Of a DNA stretch of 62,693 nt, positions 5,197 to 34,195 are shown in pieces; position 1 is the first letter of the stretch, and every line of letters starts with the position of its first letter. A model generated the notes under the pieces. That model was not told where the DNA came from. It searched no databases and saw only the letters and a list, made by a program, of their open reading frames with translations. A program made the position numbers and the translations under genes. The stretch spans positions 1 to 62,693 of the forward strand of contig JAJYTE010000010.1 of the NCBI GenBank assembly GCA_021793215.1. The letters run 5' to 3'. The stretch comes from Bacillota bacterium. GTDB taxonomy: Bacteria; Bacillota; Sulfobacillia; JAJZYS01; JAJYTV01.

Positions 5197-6135
5197 ATGC
5201 GGGAAGAGCGCTGCGAGTTCTATAGCGAGGGAGTCAAGCTCGCAGGGATCCTTCGGTTACCCGACGAGCCGTCTGCTGGAGCGCTTCCAACCCTCGTGCA
5301 CGGTCCGGGCTGGCTCGGCCTGAAGGACACGAAGATGTACGCGGGTTTCCACGAGGTGTTCACGCAGAACGGCTACGCCGTGTTCACCTTCGACTACCGC
5401 GGGTTCGGGGACAGCGAGGGGGAGCGGGGCTGGGTGAACCCGTTCTGGCAAGTTCAGGACATCCGCAACGCGATCACCTACCTGACGACCCGGCAGGAGG
5501 TGGATGCCACCCGCATCGGCCTCTATGGATCCGGCGGCACGGGCGGGGGAGTCGCCGCGTACACGGCGGCCATGGACCAGCGGGTCCAGTCCGTCGTCAT
5601 GAACGTCGGCATCGGCAACGGAACGGAGTGGCTGCGCCGCATGCGCCGCGAGTACGAGTGGCACGAGTTCTTGGCGCGGCTCGCGGAGGATGAGCAGCGC
5701 TGGTCCACATCCGGCACCGGCGAGATGGTGTCGGCGCGTGAGGAACTGATGGTGGCGACGCCGGAGCGCAAGCAGACCAGCGTGAAGAAGGACGTGGACT
5801 CCAAGGTCCCCGAGAAGTTCTACCTGCGCTGCGCCCGCTACATCCTGGACTTCAAGCCCGAGGACGTCGTCCACCTGATCGCGCCCCGCAGCATCATGAT
5901 CGTCTGCGTCGAGCAGGACGCGGTGACGGCGACAGAGCAGTCCGTCCGGCTGTTCGAGCGTGCCGTTGGGCCGCGGCGCCTCGTGGTGCAGCGCAACACG
6001 ACGCACTACGCGGCGTACAACAAGTACTTCGACGAAGTGACGCCGCTTGCGGTCGGGTGGTTCGACGAGTACCTGAAGTACGGCGCGGTGCGGCCCCAGA
6101 CGAGCACCTCTGAGATCCTGTACATTGGAGGCTAG
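5197..6135 (+). CDS. Alpha/beta hydrolase with altered nucleophile elbow
   Basis: The ATG at 5197 has GGAGGGG 7 bases upstream; a TTG two codons earlier is too close to that site. The 312-residue protein has the hydrolase fold: H-G-P-G-W-L-G (oxyanion region), F-D-Y-R-G-F-G-D-S-E-G, and a C-terminal T-T-H-Y that could supply the His. The elbow reads I-G-L-Y-G-S-G-G-T-G-G, where relatives have G-x-S-x-G; the usual nucleophile position is Gly, with Ser one residue earlier. It sits between the oxidoreductase and the amidohydrolase and probably acts on a pathway intermediate, if it is active. Confidence 0.8.
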   Translation: MREERCEFYSEGVKLAGILRLPDEPSAGALPTLVHGPGWLGLKDTKMYAGFHEVFTQNGYAVFTFDYRGFGDSEGERGWVNPFWQVQDIRNAITYLTTRQEVDATRIGLYGSGGTGGGVAAYTAAMDQRVQSVVMNVGIGNGTEWLRRMRREYEWHEFLARLAEDEQRWSTSGTGEMVSAREELMVATPERKQTSVKKDVDSKVPEKFYLRCARYILDFKPEDVVHLIAPRSIMIVCVEQDAVTATEQSVRLFERAVGPRRLVVQRNTTHYAAYNKYFDEVTPLAVGWFDEYLKYGAVRPQTSTSEILYIGG

Positions 6136-6138
6136 GCT

Positions 6139-7524
6139 TTGAGCAAGGTTGATGTGCTGATCCGCGGCGGCCAAGTGGTCATCGAAGACTCGGTCCTGCG
6201 CGCCGACATCGCAGTGAGCGGAGGCAAGATCGTCGGGATCCATGCGGCTGGCAGTGCTCCCGACGCGGAGCGGGTGATCGACGCGTCCGGCAAGGTGGTT
6301 CTGCCCGGCGTCATCGACACCCACACCCACCACCGCGAACCGGGCTTCGAGGCGAAGGAGGACATTACGACGGCGACCGCGGCCGGTGCAGTCGGCGGCG
6401 TCACGGTGAGTTTGGGCATGCCCAACGTCACGCCGCCGCCGACCACGGTCGAGAGGTACCGCGGCGTGATGGCCCACTACCCGCAGAAGGCCCACGTGGA
6501 CTACAACATGAACGCCTCACCCACGAACCTGCCCGAGGTCCAGGGGCTGGCGGACGAGGGCATCCTGGCCTTCAAGATCTTCATGGTGGAGGACACGGGG
6601 CGGGACTACCCGCACATGCCAGGCACGGGCGTACACAACCCTGGCAAGCTCTACGAGATCATGAAGAAGGTCGCCCAGACCGGGCGTCCTCTGATGGTGC
6701 ACCCGCACAATCAGGAACTGATGGACGCGATCGAGCAGGAGTACTGGGCGCGCGGCGAACACGACCCCCAGGCCTACGCCAAGGCGTACTCGGCGTACAA
6801 TGGGATCATCTGGGACACGGCGGTCTACACCCTGCTGCGGCTGCAGGAGGCGACCGGAGTCCACCTGCACATCCTTCACGTGTCCACGCGCCGCGTGATG
6901 AAGCTGATCCGCGAGGCGAAGGAACGCGGCCAGGCGGTCACCTGCGAGGCAAACCCCTGGGTGCTCTTCCTGACGAACGAGTGGTCCGTGGTGGAGAAGC
7001 TGGGCCCCTACTCGCTCTCCTACTACACGCCGCCCGAGGACGCGAGCGAGGTGTGGAACGCCCTGCGCGACGGGACGATCGACGTCATCGCGACAGACCA
7101 CGCGCCGCACACGCGCGAGGAGAAGGAGATCGGCTGGACCGACATGTGGAAGTCGCACAGCGGCACGCCCCACATCCAGTTCTACCTGAGCCTCTTGCTG
7201 GACGCGGTGAACGCCGGAAAGCTCACGCTGCCTGACGTTGCCCGCTTGACTGCCCGCAAGCCGGCAGAGATCTTCGGCATCTACCCGAAGAAGGGCGCCA
7301 TCACGGTCGGAGCCGACGCGGACCTCGTGGTGGTCGACATGGAGAAGACGCACACGATCACCAACGGCGAAGTGCTCAGCCGCTGCGGCTGGACCCCGTA
7401 CGACGGCAGGTCCGTGAAGGGCGTGCCACAGCTGACCATGCTGCGCGGCCGCGTCATCGCAGAGAACGGCAAGGTGGTCGGCAAGCCGGGGGACGGCGAG
7501 TTACTCGTTCCCGTCAAGCCTTGA
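6139..7524 (+). CDS. Cyclic amidohydrolase (dihydroorotase/allantoinase/hydantoinase family)
   Basis: The TTG at 6139 begins three bases after the hydrolase stop, with GGAGG 8 bases upstream. The 461-residue protein has the complete two-metal site: H62 and H64 in D-T-H-T-H-H-R-E-P-G, carboxylated Lys candidate K146 in A-F-K-I-F-M, H188 in V-H-P-H, H247 in L-H-V-S and D320 in A-T-D-H-A-P-H. The R-E-P-G and D-H-A-P-H forms are nearer dihydroorotase and allantoinase than dihydropyrimidinase. It should open a cyclic amide ring. A pyrimidine-biosynthetic dihydroorotase is unlikely because no pyr gene is nearby. Confidence 0.88.
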   Translation: MSKVDVLIRGGQVVIEDSVLRADIAVSGGKIVGIHAAGSAPDAERVIDASGKVVLPGVIDTHTHHREPGFEAKEDITTATAAGAVGGVTVSLGMPNVTPPPTTVERYRGVMAHYPQKAHVDYNMNASPTNLPEVQGLADEGILAFKIFMVEDTGRDYPHMPGTGVHNPGKLYEIMKKVAQTGRPLMVHPHNQELMDAIEQEYWARGEHDPQAYAKAYSAYNGIIWDTAVYTLLRLQEATGVHLHILHVSTRRVMKLIREAKERGQAVTCEANPWVLFLTNEWSVVEKLGPYSLSYYTPPEDASEVWNALRDGTIDVIATDHAPHTREEKEIGWTDMWKSHSGTPHIQFYLSLLLDAVNAGKLTLPDVARLTARKPAEIFGIYPKKGAITVGADADLVVVDMEKTHTITNGEVLSRCGWTPYDGRSVKGVPQLTMLRGRVIAENGKVVGKPGDGELLVPVKP

Positions 7525-28182: not shown

Positions 28183-28917
28183 GTGCCCCGGCTCAGCGAA
28201 CTGCAACGCGGTATCGAGCGCCTGCTCAAACAGTACATCGCCCAACCGGTGAACATCGCCGCGTGGATGGTGGGCGGCCTCGCCCTGCTCGCGATCGGCA
28301 GCATCGTCCTCCTCGAGATGAACCTGGACACGACGGTTGTCGACCTTGCGCGCATCGAGACACAGCAGATCGCGACGCGCGTCCTCTCTACGGCGCTGCA
28401 GCGAGACCTCGGAGCGCAGAACGCGCAGCTGTTCAAGGTGGACGTGAGGGGCAGTCAAGCGTTCATCACGCCCGACGTCGGGCGAATCAACGACGAGGCG
28501 GGGAAGGCGGGTCTCGCGATCGAGGCGGCGCTCAAGCATCTCCCGAGCCAGCCGATCTCCATTCCTCTTGGGCAGGCGCTTGGGTCGAAGCTGCTCTCCG
28601 CCTACGGTCCGATGATCCCCGTGACGCTGATCCCCTACGGCGCCTTGACGATCAACTTCCACGAGAGCTTCCAGCAGGCCGGCATCAACCAGACGCTCCT
28701 GACGGTCTACCTTGATACCGATACGACCGTCCAGGTCGTCGTGCCGCTCGTCTCCAAGGAGGAGCACCTCAAGGTGCAGGTGCCGATCGCGCAGGAGTGG
28801 ATCGCGGGTGCGGTGCCGCAGACGGTCGTGATGACAGGCACGACACCCTCGAAGATCATCTCGATCCCGATCGGGAGCAGTACGTCAACGAGTGGCGGGG
28901 TGGGAGCAGGCAAGTAG
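28183..28917 (+). CDS. yunB: Sporulation protein YunB
   Basis: The intact copy. The 244-residue protein has a membrane helix (about 25-44), then the YunB pattern: F-I-T-P-D-V-G-R-I-N, I-S-I-P-L-G-Q-A-L-G-S-K-L-L, G-P-M-I-P-V, A-G-I-N-Q-T and V-V-V-P-L-V-S-K-E. YunB is a mother-cell sporulation protein needed for normal spores in Bacillus; its mechanism is not known. The gene and its 3' flank are repeated about 2.7 kb downstream in damaged form. A GTG a few codons before may be the alternative start. Confidence 0.88.
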   Translation: MPRLSELQRGIERLLKQYIAQPVNIAAWMVGGLALLAIGSIVLLEMNLDTTVVDLARIETQQIATRVLSTALQRDLGAQNAQLFKVDVRGSQAFITPDVGRINDEAGKAGLAIEAALKHLPSQPISIPLGQALGSKLLSAYGPMIPVTLIPYGALTINFHESFQQAGINQTLLTVYLDTDTTVQVVVPLVSKEEHLKVQVPIAQEWIAGAVPQTVVMTGTTPSKIISIPIGSSTSTSGGVGAGK

Positions 28918-29604
28918 GGCCGGAACGAACCCATCGTGCGGCGGCCGCTGGTGAGGGAGGGGCGGTCGAACTGCCCGGCCCTCCCTCCGCGGTTCACGCT
29001 CGCCGGCCGCACCGGGACAAGCCGTCGACCGCCCGAGCCGCAAGCGGTGCGGCGGGCCGTGGGGCGCAGCCGCGTGGACGAATTGTCCATCTGCGGGCTT
29101 GAATAGTTTCCTTGAAACCAACGCGAATGTGATCGAAGAGTGTCAATATATAGAAATTGCCTGGAAGTGGTGAGAACGTTCTGGGTCGGACCGTGGCCGA
29201 CGGCCGACTGGGACAACGCCCTGAAACTGGCCACCCAGCAGGCGTCGAAGGACGCGCACACCCGATTCCCGGGCAAGGATGGAGTGGCCCTGTTCGCCGG
29301 GGGACAGGACGCTCCGTCCGAGGCCGCATTCTCGGTCGGGGCGGGCGAACCGCTACGTCGTCGAGTCCCTCGGCTACCGGGCGCCGGAACTGGCCGCTGT
29401 CATGGCCCCTGCACGCTGAGGGGGGATCGCAGGAACGCGCGCAGTCGGACCCTGAGGCACGACGCGCGATGCGCAAGAGCGGCGCCGCGGCCGGATCCGT
29501 GCGGCGGCACAGCGAGGAGAACGCCTCAGCCGAAGCCTCACAGGTGGCCACCTGAGGTGAACGCGAACTATCCTGGCCAGTTCCGGCACCAAGGCGGGCT
29601 AGCA
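28456..29604 (+). repeat. Duplicated block, copy A (internally deleted)
   Basis: Copy A is the 3' part of yunB, its 185-base 3' flank, about 70 bases of unrelated AT-richer DNA (29102-29170), then the end of an anti-sigma-like gene and its 3' flank. It aligns at high identity with 31191-33400 (copy B). Relative to copy B it lacks about 1.1 kb, the whole sigma gene and most of the anti-sigma gene. Confidence 0.85.
29170..29419 (+). pseudogene. 3' remnant of an anti-sigma-like gene (copy A)
   Basis: Translation in broken frames gives F-W-V-G-P-W-P-T-A-D-W and H-T-R-F-P-G-K-D-G-V-A-L-F-A-G-G, nearly the same as the C-terminus of the intact protein at 32321-33217. Extra bases after S-V-G shift the frame before the conserved end L-A-A-V-M-A-P-A-R. 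There is no start codon or 5' part. It is the scar of the duplication. Confidence 0.85.
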
Positions 29605-29610
29605 AGAGCC

Positions 29611-29696
29611 AGAAAAATGAGAGAGTACCCCGAGCGCACCGGGCTACTCTCTGACCGGAACCCTGGCCAAGCAGCCTGGGACCGCATGCAGCGAAT
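29611..29696 (+). promoter_or_regulatory. Structured leader upstream of a terminator and binding-protein gene
   Basis: The segment begins with an 8-bp stem AGAGAGTA/TACTCTCT (29620-29627 with 29645-29652) whose inner part adds CCCG/CGGG pairing, followed by about 45 bases that end in a T-tailed hairpin. The layout resembles a cis-acting aptamer plus terminator before a transporter gene. It did not match the SAM, TPP, glycine, cobalamin, guanidine or T-box cores recalled here. It could equally be two ordinary terminators. Confidence 0.35.
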
Positions 29697-29733
29697 AACG
29701 GCGCGCGGTCAGAAGACCAGGGCGCCGTTTTTT
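29697..29733 (+). terminator. Rho-independent terminator upstream of the orphan binding protein
   Basis: AACGGCGC (29697-29704) pairs with GCGCCGTT (29722-29729), with an inner GGTC-AGAA-GACC hairpin, followed directly by six T. It ends 107 bases before the ATG at 29841, so it may be an attenuator for that gene rather than the end of an upstream unit. Confidence 0.75.
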
Positions 29734-29840
29734 GAACGCAACCATCATACTAGCAGATTGTCAGACACTCAGGAAGGGAATGCCGTCGCTGCAACGAACT
29801 GACTGACCACTCTGATGTTGACACGAGGGGGAACGAAGTA

Positions 29841-31124
29841 ATGCGTCTACGTGGATCAGCGACCGCTCTCGCCTTCGCGTTCGTCTCCATGGCAGCTCTG
29901 GTTGGAGGCTGTGGATCCGCCCCGGCAACCGGGTCTTCCGCTCCGAAAGTCATCAAGATCGGGTTCCTCGCCCCCGAGACCGGCAACGCAGCCGCGTCTG
30001 GTGCGGACATGATCCACGGCTGGCAGATGTGGTGGAAGCAGCACGGGTCCACGATCGACGGGTACAAGGTCGAAACCACATTCTACGACACCGGATCGGA
30101 CCCGCAGCAGGCGCTGACCAAGGCGCGCCAGGCCGTCCAGCAGGACGGAATGCAGATGATCGTGGGGCCATACCTCGCATCATCCGGCCTCGCCGTCGCG
30201 CCATACCTCGAGCAGAGCCAGGTGCCGTTCTTCATGCCGACCGTCTCCGCGGACGATCTCACCCAGCGCACCCGCAGCCCCTACCTGATCCGCACAGCAG
30301 GCTGGACCTCGAGTCAGACGACGCACCCGGCGGGCACCTGGGCCTATGACCAGGGGTACCACACGGTCGTGACGATCGGGAGTGAGTACGCCTTCGGCTA
30401 CGAGACGGTCGGAGGGTTCGCGCAGACCTTTACGGCCAAGGGCGGCAAGGTGCTCAAGCAGCTCTGGACGCCGCTCGGCACGGCGAACTTCGGGCCCTTC
30501 CTCTCGCAGGTCCGGCTGCTCAAGCCGCAGGCCGTGTTCGTCGAGATGGTCGGCGCCGACGCGCCGAACTTCCTCAAGCAGTGGCAGTCCTTCGGACTCG
30601 CCGGCAACGTCAAGCTGATCGGCAACGAAACCCTGACAGACCAGTCCAACATCCGCACCCTGCCGCTCAAGGACGTGGTCGGGATCACGACCTTCGCGCA
30701 CTACGCCGAGGGGCGGCAGAACAGCGCGACGCAGCAGTTCGACCAGCAGTTCAGCAAGGCGTACAAGGAGCTCCCGTCCTACATGGCGGCCGCCTGCTAC
30801 ACCTCTGCGGAATGGATCGCCCAGGCGATCGGCAAGACGAATGGCAACGTCACAAAGAAAGTTGCGTTCTTGAACGCCGTGCGCTCTATCTCGTTCACAG
30901 ATACGCCGCTCGGTCCGATGAAGCTCGACCAGTACGGCAACCCGATCGAGAACGTCTACATCCGCACGGTGGAAGCCACGCCGTCGCAGTACAGCAAGGT
31001 CGCCGTCGCCTGGAACGTACCGACCTACACCTACCACAACGTCTCGCAGTTCTGGACCTTCAACCCCGCGCAGTACCTGAAGCAGCCCGACTACTCCCCG
31101 ACCTTCCAAGGCATCGCGAAGTAG
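29841..31124 (+). CDS. ABC transporter substrate-binding lipoprotein, LivJ-like (orphan)
   Basis: The ATG at 29841 follows GAGGGGGAA. The 427-residue protein has a lipoprotein signal with the lipobox L-V-G-G-C (Cys24), then the periplasmic-binding fold of the branched-chain amino acid/amide receptor type (I-G-F-L-A-P-E-T-G, then V-G-P-Y-L-A-S-S-G in the hinge region). No permease or ATPase gene lies next to it. It sits exactly between the two copies of the yunB-sigma duplication, which suggests that it came in with that rearrangement. Ligand unknown. Confidence 0.88.
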   Translation: MRLRGSATALAFAFVSMAALVGGCGSAPATGSSAPKVIKIGFLAPETGNAAASGADMIHGWQMWWKQHGSTIDGYKVETTFYDTGSDPQQALTKARQAVQQDGMQMIVGPYLASSGLAVAPYLEQSQVPFFMPTVSADDLTQRTRSPYLIRTAGWTSSQTTHPAGTWAYDQGYHTVVTIGSEYAFGYETVGGFAQTFTAKGGKVLKQLWTPLGTANFGPFLSQVRLLKPQAVFVEMVGADAPNFLKQWQSFGLAGNVKLIGNETLTDQSNIRTLPLKDVVGITTFAHYAEGRQNSATQQFDQQFSKAYKELPSYMAAACYTSAEWIAQAIGKTNGNVTKKVAFLNAVRSISFTDTPLGPMKLDQYGNPIENVYIRTVEATPSQYSKVAVAWNVPTYTYHNVSQFWTFNPAQYLKQPDYSPTFQGIAK

Positions 31125-31190
31125 GTCGCAGGACCGGGGGCGCGCCGCTGCGGCGGCGTCGCCTCCGGTCTCTGCCTGAGGAGGGCGCAG

Positions 31191-31643
31191 ACCGACGTTA
31201 CGCCCGACGTCGGGCGCATCAACGACGAAGCGGGGAAGGCGGATCTCGCGATCGACGCGGCGCTCAAGCATCTCCCGAGCCAGCCGATCTCCATCTGGGC
31301 AGGCGCTCGGGGCAAAGCTACTCTCCGCCTACGCTCCGATGATCCCCGTGACGCTGATCCCCTACGGCGCCTTGACGATCAACTCCCACGAGAGCTTCCA
31401 GCAGGCCGGCATCAACCAGACGCTCCTGACGGTCTACCTCGATACCGATACGACCGTTCAGGTCGTCGTGCCGCTCGTCTCCAAGGAGAAGCACCTCAAG
31501 ATGCGCGTGCCCATCAGCAGGAGTGGATCGCGGGTGCGGTGCCGCAGACGGTCGTGATGACAGGCACGACGCCCTCGAAGATCATCTCGATCCCGATCGG
31601 GAGCAGTACGTTAACGAGCGGCGGGGTGGGAGCAGGCAAGTAG
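31191..31643 (+). pseudogene. yunB: 5'-truncated, frameshifted yunB (copy B)
   Basis: The sequence aligns with bases 28456-28917 of the intact gene. It begins at T-P-D-V-G-R-I-N-D-E and so lacks the first 90-odd codons, including the membrane helix. A 5-base deletion at the I-S-I-P-L-G-Q segment (about 31294) and a 1-base deletion in the P-I-A-Q-E-W segment (about 31515) break the frame. It cannot make YunB. Confidence 0.88.
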
Positions 31644-31808
31644 GTCGGGAACGAGCCCGTCGCGCGGCAGCCGCTGGCGAGGCAGGGGCGGTCGAACTGC
31701 CCGTCCCTCCCTCCGCGGTTCACGCCCGCCGGCCGCACAGGGACAAGCCGCCGACCGCGCGAGCCGCAAGCGGTGCGGCGGGCAGTGGGGCGCAGTCGCG
31801 TGAACGAA

Positions 31809-32324
31809 ATGGCCAACTGCGGGTTCCTACTCTGTGCGGAGGTGGAGACGACGACGCTCGAGTCCCTCATGCGTACCTACGCCCGGAGCGTCTACCAGCA
31901 GGCCTACCTCTACACTGGGAATCCCGTCATGGCGGACGACGTTACGCAGAACGTGTTCCTTGCGGCGTACCGGCACCTCGGTGCGATTCGCAACCCGAAG
32001 GCTTGGCTGACGAGGGCAACGCTGAACGCCGCGCGCAACATGCTTCGCGATCTGGCGCGCCATCCTGCGGCGGAACTTCCGGCAGACCTCCCCGATGCAG
32101 GCGCCGATCCGGCCGCACGCTACGAGGAGCAGGACGTGATCGAGGCGATCCTCGCGCTTCCGGAGGACCTGCGCCAGGTGATCGTGCTCGTCTACTACCA
32201 GGGCAGTCTCGGGCGCGAGGCGGGCTCACTGCTCGGGGTTCCCGAGGGCACCGTGCGCAGCCGCCTGGCGCGGGCGCGTCGCCTGCTGAGGCAACGGCTG
32301 GAGGAGGAGGAGGGGGAAGGATGA
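31809..32324 (+). CDS. ECF-type RNA polymerase sigma factor
   Basis: The start is uncertain: ATG 31809 and GTG 31842 are both possible and neither has a well-spaced ribosome site; conserved sequence begins near L-E-S-L-M-R-T-Y. Region 2 includes D-D-V-T-Q-N-V-F-L-A-A-Y, and region 4 has the helix-turn-helix L-P-E-D-L-R-Q-V-I-V-L-V-Y-Y with G-V-P-E-G-T-V-R-S-R-L-A-R-A-R. It should direct polymerase to a small regulon. Its stop overlaps the start of the next gene (ATGA), the usual sigma/anti-sigma coupling. Confidence 0.87.
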   Translation: MANCGFLLCAEVETTTLESLMRTYARSVYQQAYLYTGNPVMADDVTQNVFLAAYRHLGAIRNPKAWLTRATLNAARNMLRDLARHPAAELPADLPDAGADPAARYEEQDVIEAILALPEDLRQVIVLVYYQGSLGREAGSLLGVPEGTVRSRLARARRLLRQRLEEEEGEG

Positions 32325-33217
32325 AGCGAGGCATCGAGGAGACGTTGCGCGATCTGCCTGACGCCATGGACCGGGCGGGAATCACACCAGATCTCAAGGC
32401 GCTCAGCAGCCGAATCGGGCGTGCGCCGCTGCGGCGGGGCGCCGGCCTTGGGTGGCTGCTCGCAGGCGTCGCCACCCTGACCGCCTTGGTGACGGTCGCC
32501 GCGCTGGTGCGCGGGACGGCAGGGCCCGGGCGGCATGTGAAGCCCACCGCAGCGAAGAAGGCAACCGGTGTTCGCAACTACGGAACGGCTCGGCAGGAAC
32601 TTGGACAGCGACTCTCGGGTGCGCCGATCCCCGTCTACCTTCCGCTGACGGTCGGCAAGGGCATGGTCCTTGGATCGATCGACGCCAGCTTTCGGGTGAC
32701 GGCGAAGGGGTACACGGTCACCATGGGGTACGGCCCAAAGACTGCGCTCCCCCTGAACTCGCCCAAGGCGCAGTTCGGGAACGCGGAACTCCTCATGATA
32801 GTGCGGGGCGCGGCACCCGGCGGCAGCCTGCAGCTCTCGCGCTGGATCCCCCTGCCGAGCCAAGCGCCGATCCCTGGCGCAGCGCAGGGCAGCGTGGACC
32901 TCGGCCACGGCATCGTCGGCACGACGTTCATCGGAGGCGGTGGACAGGAGGCGGTCACGTGGCACGAGGGCGGTTGGACGTTCTGGGTCGGGCCATGGCA
33001 GACAGCCGACTGGGGCAACCCCCTGAAACTGGCCGCCCAGCAGGCGTCGAAGTACGCGCACACCCGATTCCCGGGCAAGGATGGAGTGGCCCTGTTCGCA
33101 GGGGGACAGGATGCTCCGTCCGAGGCCGTCTTCTCGGTCGGCGGGAACCGCTACGTCGTCGAGTCCCTCGGCTACCGCGCGCCGGAACTGGCCGCCGTCA
33201 TGGCCCCGGCACGCTGA
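32321..33217 (+). CDS. Putative transmembrane anti-sigma factor
   Basis: The ATG at 32321 overlaps the sigma stop and follows AGGAGGAGG-rich sequence; the frame extends upstream to 31523, but that part is a shadow of the sigma gene. The 298-residue protein has a cytoplasmic N-terminus of about 40 residues, one membrane helix (about 43-64) and an outer domain of about 230 residues with no recognised enzyme motif. Position and topology suggest that it holds the sigma factor inactive until an external signal. A C-terminal fragment of its duplicate remains at 29170-29419. Confidence 0.7.
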   Translation: MKRGIEETLRDLPDAMDRAGITPDLKALSSRIGRAPLRRGAGLGWLLAGVATLTALVTVAALVRGTAGPGRHVKPTAAKKATGVRNYGTARQELGQRLSGAPIPVYLPLTVGKGMVLGSIDASFRVTAKGYTVTMGYGPKTALPLNSPKAQFGNAELLMIVRGAAPGGSLQLSRWIPLPSQAPIPGAAQGSVDLGHGIVGTTFIGGGGQEAVTWHEGGWTFWVGPWQTADWGNPLKLAAQQASKYAHTRFPGKDGVALFAGGQDAPSEAVFSVGGNRYVVESLGYRAPELAAVMAPAR

Positions 33218-33397
33218 GGGGGCGATCGCAGCAACGCGCGCGGGCGAACCCCGCGGCGCGAAGCGCGGTGCGCAAGAGCGGCGCCGCTGCCGGATCCGTG
33301 CGAAGCCCGGCGGCGCAGCGGAGTCTAGCCGAAATCTCGCATGTAGTCCCGTGAGGTGAAGGCGAACTCTCCTCGCAAGTTCCCACGCCAAGGCGGA

Positions 33398-34195
33398 CTA
33401 GGCGTCTTTTGGCGTCGTCGCGATGCGCAGTTCAGTCAGGAGCTGCTTCGTGATGCTGCCGCCGAAGCGCGCGTTGACCAGCGACTCGACGCAGTCCGCG
33501 AGACGCTCCCCGCGTTCGCCCAGGGCGCGGACGGCAGAGTACGTGCGCAGAAGGTCGCGGTACGCGGCCGCGGAGTAGGTGCGCTTCCAAAGGTAGCGTC
33601 GCAGCGCCACCTTGGCGAAGCGCGGTGAGCAGTCGAGCTCCGCCATCTCCCTGGGGAGTTCCTCGGAGGTTGGCAGGCGGAAGCCGAGCTTCACGTCGGG
33701 ATCGTAGCGCAGGTAGCAGTCCTGGCTCTCCGCGACGAACCTCCCGTCCTCGCCGGCGACGTCCGTGGTCTGGAGGATCGCGAGCGCGCCGCCTGGACGG
33801 AGTGCGTCGGCGGACTTCTCGACGCGTACCGCCGGATCCACCCAGTGGAAGGACGTCGCCGCGACCACCAGGTCGAAGCGCTCCGGCGGCAGATCGTACT
33901 CCTCGAAAGCGCAGACCGCGATCTCTACATCGGCGTAGGTGGCGAGACGGCGGCGCGCGGCCGCCGCCATGTGCTCGCCGATCTCCACCGCCGTGACTTT
34001 GAGGCCGCGCTCCGCAAGCGCCTCGGTGAAGATGCCCGTGCCGCAGCCGATCTCCAGCACCCGCGCTCCGGGCCCAAGGCGCGCTTCGCGGGTGAGGTCT
34101 GCCACAGCCTGCGGCGGGTAGGGGGGACGCGCGCGGTCGTAGAGTGGCGCATCCTCGTCAAAGGTCATGCGCAGCTGCTCGCGATCCAACCCCAT
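33398..34195 (-). CDS. SAM-dependent methyltransferase (class I)
   Basis: The ATG at 34195 has GGAGGGG about 6 bases upstream; the longer frame is an extension. The 265-residue protein has motif I V-L-E-I-G-C-G-T-G, an acidic residue after strand 2 (V-T-A-V-E-I-G) and the F-D-L-V-V-A-A-T-S-F-H-W segment typical of the UbiE/Tam-like group. It contains a Y-D-R-A-R-P-P-Y-P motif near the N-terminus, common in that subgroup. Substrate unknown. Its 3' end touches the edge of duplicated block B. Confidence 0.85.
   Translation of the reverse strand: MGLDREQLRMTFDEDAPLYDRARPPYPPQAVADLTREARLGPGARVLEIGCGTGIFTEALAERGLKVTAVEIGEHMAAAARRRLATYADVEIAVCAFEEYDLPPERFDLVVAATSFHWVDPAVRVEKSADALRPGGALAILQTTDVAGEDGRFVAESQDCYLRYDPDVKLGFRLPTSEELPREMAELDCSPRFAKVALRRYLWKRTYSAAAYRDLLRTYSAVRALGERGERLADCVESLVNARFGGSITKQLLTELRIATTPKDA

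Follow-up and report, generated by a model that had tools for sequence, protein, structure and literature searches.

Several sporulation genes are known to be invaded by mobile elements: skin lies in sigK, SP-beta in spsM, vfbin in spoVFB, vrin in spoVR, gin in gerE and yin in yabG. The e14 prophage of Escherichia coli sits in icd, where it provides the gene with a new 3′ end, a 163-bp pseudo-icd′ being left behind (PMC6379469), and published insertions of IS607-family insertion sequences (IS) use a (G)GG target, without target duplication (PMC6188088). Here we describe a locus of an uncultured Bacillota bacterium (class Sulfobacillia, assembly GCA_021793215.1) in which the sporulation gene yunB and a gene pair for an extracytoplasmic function (ECF) sigma factor and its putative anti-sigma factor are present in two unequal copies, A and B. 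The locus belongs to contig JAJYTE010000010.1, a stretch of 62,693 nucleotides that we call the window and that makes up the complete contig C63 of its genome (G000; 2.74 Mb, 87 contigs, 97.7% complete). The explanation that we regard as probable is a partial direct duplication in which the yunB of copy B was dead from the breakpoint on, and the sigma pair of copy A was lost through an IS607 insertion followed by a deletion.

Compared with itself, the window has two direct repeats between the blocks and no more: 28468-29097 against 31200-31823 (92.7% identity, E=0) and 29176-29602 against 32978-33401 (86% identity, E 1e-127). A preliminary description of this DNA had presented 28456-29604 and 31191-33400 as diverged copies of one block, and its limits proved to be off by no more than about 12 bases. 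It was also right that copy A has a full yunB, no sigma gene and only the tail of the anti-sigma gene (79 codons remain), that copy B has an intact sigma pair and a truncated yunB with two frameshifts (5-bp and 1-bp deletions), and that a 1.6-kb segment with one binding-protein gene separates them. The features of the locus are as follows.

28183 to 28917, + strand: intact yunB of copy A, judged functional (TIGR02832, PF09560, substitution pattern, left neighbours kept in relatives)
28468 to 29097, + strand: copy A, repeat block 1, spanning codon 96 of yunB to the sigma leader (92.7% identity to 31200-31823)
28918 to 29097, + strand: yunB-sigma spacer of copy A with a decayed sigma promoter (TGGAC for TGAAC), from alignments
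29098 to 29175, + strand: stub of the left end of an IS607-family element that entered after CTGCGGG; the deletion joins it to anti-sigma codon 220
29176 to 29418, + strand: what remains of the anti-sigma gene in copy A, namely codons 220-298, frameshifted by 4 bp
29419 to 29602, + strand: region 3′ of the anti-sigma remnant, end of copy A, 75% identical to 33218-33401; right limit of homology
29603 to 31199, + strand: unique segment between the copies, without repeat match; homology to G002 over 29749-31175
29841 to 31124, + strand: substrate-binding lipoprotein gene of the branched-chain/amide type, LivJ/UrtA-like (PF13458 Peripla_BP_6, E 7e-71)
31200 to 31643, + strand: yunB pseudogene of copy B, from codon 96, with the 5-bp and 1-bp deletions; derived changes 4, 6, 6
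31801 to 31826, + strand: candidate ECF promoter TGAAC-N16-GGGTTC upstream of sigma, found in this form nowhere else in the window
31842 to 32324, + strand: ECF sigma gene of copy B, judged functional from profile matches (GTG start at 31842 likely, at 31773 possible)
32321 to 33217, + strand: putative membrane anti-sigma gene of copy B, judged functional (derived changes in the tail 0, 1, 4)
33218 to 33401, + strand: end of copy B, from the self-comparison; homology runs 184 bp past the anti-sigma gene

For comparison we used three congeners (G001-G003, other species of the genus) and more distant relatives, among them a member of another genus (G004) and one of another family (G010). The closest relatives are on record as Bacillota genomes assembled from metagenomes, and their isolate codes (for example DX, YF, DBS, HSP and SKS) may refer to acid-mine-drainage sites, a guess from the codes only. 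Copies A and B are closer to each other than to any congener. Indeed, their synonymous divergence (Ks) is 0.10, against 0.78-0.97 to G001-G003, so that the duplication appears to be young relative to the genus, made within the species lineage and well after its split from the known congeners. These values, and the fact that the copies are each other's nearest match, contradict the idea that the two blocks are independent ancient loci; we found no evidence in its support and practically dismiss it. An assembly artefact, in which two strain variants were merged in one metagenome contig, is improbable. The genome is fragmented and the contigs of relatives often break at this locus, as such an artefact would lead one to expect, but the copies have decayed in opposite ways, the IS607 stub is present only in A, and the longest exact match between the copies is 54 bp. 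Furthermore, yunB pieces are duplicated with other limits in independently assembled relatives.

The polarity of the changes, set by the three congeners for yunB and with G005 and G006 added for the anti-sigma tail, separates the two copies. At codon positions 1, 2 and 3, the derived changes number 0, 0 and 6 in yunB of copy A and 4, 6 and 6 in that of copy B, and, reciprocally, 3, 3 and 5 plus a 4-bp insertion in the anti-sigma tail of copy A and 0, 1 and 4 in that of copy B. Pooled, the functional copies have 1 change at positions 1-2 versus 10 at position 3, and the decayed copies 16 versus 11 (Fisher p 0.0099); yunB alone gives p 0.015. This pattern argues that yunB of copy A and the sigma pair of copy B are the working genes. 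The former exceeds the curated cut-offs of both its profiles, with 127.9 bits against 111.9 for TIGR02832 (spo_yunB) and 102.2 against 25 for PF09560. The survival of each function in one copy, as first proposed, is thus supported by both the repeats and the polarised changes.

The two defective copies arose in different ways. Homology in copy B begins at yunB codon 96, directly after the binding-protein segment, and codons 1-95 are entirely missing, a fact that had escaped the preliminary description. Because the breakpoint cut yunB there, the gene of copy B would never have had a start, a promoter or its first 95 codons, and was apparently dead on arrival, not lost later. Its density of change is near-neutral (10/296 at positions 1+2 and 6/148 at position 3), and such similar values at constrained and free positions fit a gene that never functioned. 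The term complementary loss is therefore too strong, the sigma pair of copy A being the only true loss.

The loss of that sigma pair left a trace in 29098-29175, which is foreign sequence, also missed at first. This stub of about 78 bp has 40% G+C, against 67.5% for the window, and is 78% identical to a stretch of the same genome (G000:C50:17886-17967) located directly 5′ of an IS607 tnpA and tnpB. In the C50 element, the tnpA frame combines a MerR-type helix-turn-helix and a Resolvase domain (Pfam) and the next gene, tnpB, matches HTH_OrfB_IS605; IS607 left ends of G007 and G009 match the stub as well. The stub thus shares its end sequence with an element that encodes both TnpA (MerR-Resolvase) and TnpB, which places it in the IS607 family. 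GG/CTT is found at both junctions, that of the stub in the window and that of the C50 element. The left junction, CTGCGGG/CTTGAA, compared with CTGCGGGTTCC in copy B, fits an insertion at GG; the right junction has gone with the deletion, which leaves any target duplication out of sight. Only upstream and leader DNA remains of the copy-A sigma, and the pair appears to have been destroyed by insertion of IS607 and then deletion. In G007 and G009, IS607 left ends with tnpA sequence are located just upstream of sigma, in the orientation opposite to that in the window (L093:3206-3299; L097:7683-8053), so the sigma upstream region seems to have been struck by IS607 more than once.

The events probably followed one another in this way. 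The stretch that begins at yunB codon 96 and ends 184 bp beyond the anti-sigma gene would have been doubled in direct orientation, with the 1.6-kb binding-protein segment between the copies. The right-hand yunB, cut by the breakpoint, would have drifted neutrally from the start, both sigma/anti-sigma pairs being at first complete. IS607 would then have entered the GGG of the left sigma promoter/leader, and a deletion starting inside it would have taken the element body, sigma and three quarters of the anti-sigma gene, sparing the left end. The outcome would be a functionally single-copy locus that keeps its outer neighbours and implies no new regulation. The homology, the polarised decay, the IS607 end and the synteny are seen in the sequences; the order of events, the way in which the duplication arose and the anti-sigma role of the membrane protein are deduced.

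How the binding-protein gene came to lie in the middle bears on the mode of duplication. It had been described as a new receptor gene placed between the copies by the duplication; it does sit there, and an orthologue of 84% nucleotide identity is found elsewhere in G002 (C194:1639-3065), not at yunB, so it would have come either on its own or together with the duplication. Two copies of this gene would result from a single tandem duplication, which leaves three possibilities: loss of the second copy at 33401, insertion-duplication, or later insertion. Tandem duplication plus loss takes two events, insertion-duplication one and later insertion two. In the insertion-duplication, a circle carrying the binding-protein gene and homologous yunB′-sigma-anti-sigma sequence from a close relative would have entered by a single crossover, the IS607 step being unchanged. 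The end of copy A is the sole left boundary of the unique segment and the start of copy B its sole right boundary, as in a Campbell insertion; the locus is recombinogenic, the G003 sigma/anti-sigma region being a chimera of G000-like and G004-like sequence; and the binding-protein gene has its place elsewhere in G002. However, the near-neutral yunB of copy B hardly looks as if it had previously diverged under constraint in a donor, and the segment is devoid of plasmid or element genes. We regard this route as a tentative alternative.

The partial duplication followed by breakpoint and IS607 losses also has to be weighed against several adverse points. If the duplication was plainly tandem, the second binding-protein gene must have been lost exactly at 33401, and the origin of the segment counts against it to that extent. 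Identity is uneven along the repeat alignment (95, 89, 93 and 75%). The polarised tests rest on low substitution counts, and the anti-sigma tail taken alone is not significant (p 0.31), showing only a trend that is the reverse of that in yunB. Finally, the source species is represented in the comparison by one genome, with no second strain.

Two side observations concern the segment. Its leader, 29603-29748, shows an apparent hairpin and a terminator-like stretch, GGCGCCGTTTTTT, lies outside the match to the G002 orthologue and, like all of 28-34 kb, has no match in Rfam. The G002 orthologue adjoins a gene that we take to be an M24-type peptidase (so named from its sequence), and contig C82 of the source genome (L002:1102-3277) has a second binding-protein paralogue beside a LivM-like permease and an M24-type peptidase.

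The neighbourhood of the two survivors is informative. To the left of yunB, PBP1a-TyrS is kept in relatives of the family; on the right side, the order sigma remnant-Opu-asparaginase-NadE (NAD synthetase) is common to G003 and the window. Between these flanks the relatives vary: yunB-MFS-MerR in G001, MFS-MerR-sigma-anti-sigma in G002, yunB-MFS-MerR-fragment-amino-acid permease-sigma-anti-sigma in G005, and a permease directly after yunB in G007 and G009. No match to MFS-MerR was found anywhere in G000. Direct yunB-sigma adjacency occurs only in G000 and G003. The sigma/anti-sigma region of G003 (L082:6663-8107) itself looks chimeric on a reading of its sequence, the sigma start being G000-like and the sigma end and anti-sigma G004-like. 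The preliminary description had assumed an ancestral order yunB-sigma-anti-sigma, from which the duplication uncoupled yunB. We did not find that order as an ancestral state: MFS-MerR or a permease usually intervenes, and the one adjacent relative, G003, is recombinant. Since the relatives show no ancestral yunB-sigma unit, no old coupling would have been broken and the uncoupling claim is not supported. The survivors appear to be simply those on the outside, still next to their ancestral outer neighbours.

The sigma protein of copy B exceeds the cut-offs for Sigma70_r2 and r4_2 (Pfam) and for TIGR02937, as expected of an ECF factor. Its partner has no match among Pfam or NCBIfam profiles, and its AlphaFold model (predicted local distance difference test score, pLDDT, 31) is too poor for fold comparison. 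The gene overlaps sigma and its product has one membrane-length hydrophobic helix; the name anti-sigma is putative and given from gene position. The halves of the candidate promoter, TGAAC and GGG(T/G)TC, recur with variation in each of the eight further sigma upstream regions that were aligned; in copy A, a mutation has altered the first half, and IS607 lies at the second. A scan of the window found no TGAAC-N16-GGGTTC upstream of yunB or of the binding-protein gene. Its position before sigma, and its absence before these two genes, suggest autoregulation and no control of either. Control of yunB or of the binding-protein gene by the sigma factor, considered as a candidate role, is thus unsupported, the motif occurring once in the window, before sigma itself.

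In relatives, yunB has been disturbed in another way. Five of them (G002-G006) have a full yunB with one or more partial copies of its 3′ end downstream, corresponding to about the last 170 bp, from codon ~183/184 to near the stop codon.

L082:949-1149 and 6097-6282, L089:6822-7061, L090:8135-8309, L091:5091-6998, L092:8576-8794: yunB 3′-end fragments in series behind a full yunB (common start and flank)
L098:3786-5282, + strand, and 5321-5812, − strand: integrase and broken yunB of G010
L099:1796-1987, on another contig: yunB 3′ part of G010, with P-type arm

Nine fragments (G003-G006 and G010) have a common start, and the 25 bases before it (−25 to −1) are alike (pairwise identity 0.44, z 12.3; further out 0.265, z 0.4). 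The similarity of the arms alone is modest (at −23 to −12, 0.65 between fragments and 0.41 between fragments and full genes), because the arms also resemble yunB, so it is mainly the integrase genes and the common start that speak for reading the fragments as scars. Remnants of serine recombinases, in the form of degraded C-termini, lie next to fragments in G004 and G006, though not every fragment has one. In G010, yunB is broken at codon ~184 and the break faces an intact large serine recombinase of 498 amino acids (Resolvase, Recombinase, Zn_ribbon). The fragmented assembly has the two halves on different contigs, C213 and C61, and the 3′ part has the same flank as the scars; worked out by hand, the halves give a symmetric attP, CGTGACCACGCTC-CA-CAGCATCGTCACG. 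Common start, flank motif and an integrase or its remnant alongside, the marks of an attR scar, are thus found for fragments of G003-G006 and G010. G001 has yunB directly followed by MFS-MerR, as an apparently empty site, and G003 and G006 have a fragment before the same MFS gene, as an occupied one. In a class-wide scan of 154 genomes, 81 with yunB, split or extra pieces appeared only in the order of the source. In G002 (L083:3280-3310), the core of a second 3′ fragment follows the yunB stop codon without a gap (TAGATCGTGGTGCC), which gives the impression that the cargo has all been lost.

These sequences lead us to infer that elements with a serine integrase have integrated at yunB repeatedly. 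We lean, with some reserve, towards a broader proposal: the yunB 3′ end would be a lineage-wide attachment site for large serine integrases, used in series, with an element-borne 3′ end restoring the gene in family f1, in the style of e14 and icd, and with a split gene in G010 whose element may excise in sporulation, in the style of skin. Scars of this kind could serve as recombination substrates and make the locus prone to rearrangement, as in the window. The inference of the same process in G003-G006 and G010 raises the question of whether the duplication in the window is itself an integration scar, brought by a serine integrase that supplied yunB with a new 3′ end. We consider this very improbable. 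Copy B begins at codon 96 instead of 183/184, the arm of its core is of the yunB type (B-type), and the scar motif has no exact match in G000; as an attR scar, copy B was rejected on these grounds. Since the window is free of such a scar, we ascribe its duplication only to a rearrangement-prone locus and not to the integrase process.

Taken together, the duplication is real, recent and partial; its outcome is ordinary, the cause of the loss is unusually legible, and yunB is likely a mobile-element target. The window offers a well-preserved case in which the agents of gene loss after duplication, a gene cut by the breakpoint and an IS607 end, can still be read. It also calls for caution, as complementary survival need not mean adaptive partitioning. 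With the relatives taken into account, yunB would join the few sporulation genes known to be entered by serine-integrase elements, and the occupied and apparently empty yunB sites of these relatives make repeated targeting testable by sequence comparison. In the literature searched, yunB does not figure among invaded sporulation genes, no paper links it with a serine recombinase, and papers on yunB and prophages look unrelated by title.

How do these elements compare with the known systems? Like other IS607-family elements (TnpA serine transposase plus TnpB), that of the window has a left end known directly 5′ of tnpA/tnpB in the same genome and an apparent GG target; unlike them, it keeps only its one short end, the trace of a presumed transposition. 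Among the intervening elements of sporulation genes, yunB is not a reported target, the window holds no such element and excision in G010 is only predicted, but in G010 a large serine recombinase abuts the sporulation gene yunB, broken at the scar codon, as would be expected of a possible skin-like element, here with its parts on separate contigs. The e14 prophage comes from another phylum and its integrase is a tyrosine integrase, whereas the enzyme at yunB is a serine integrase; nevertheless, the yunB fragments, being the last ~170 bp and ending near the stop codon, would fit a 3′ end borne by the element, as in e14 and icd.

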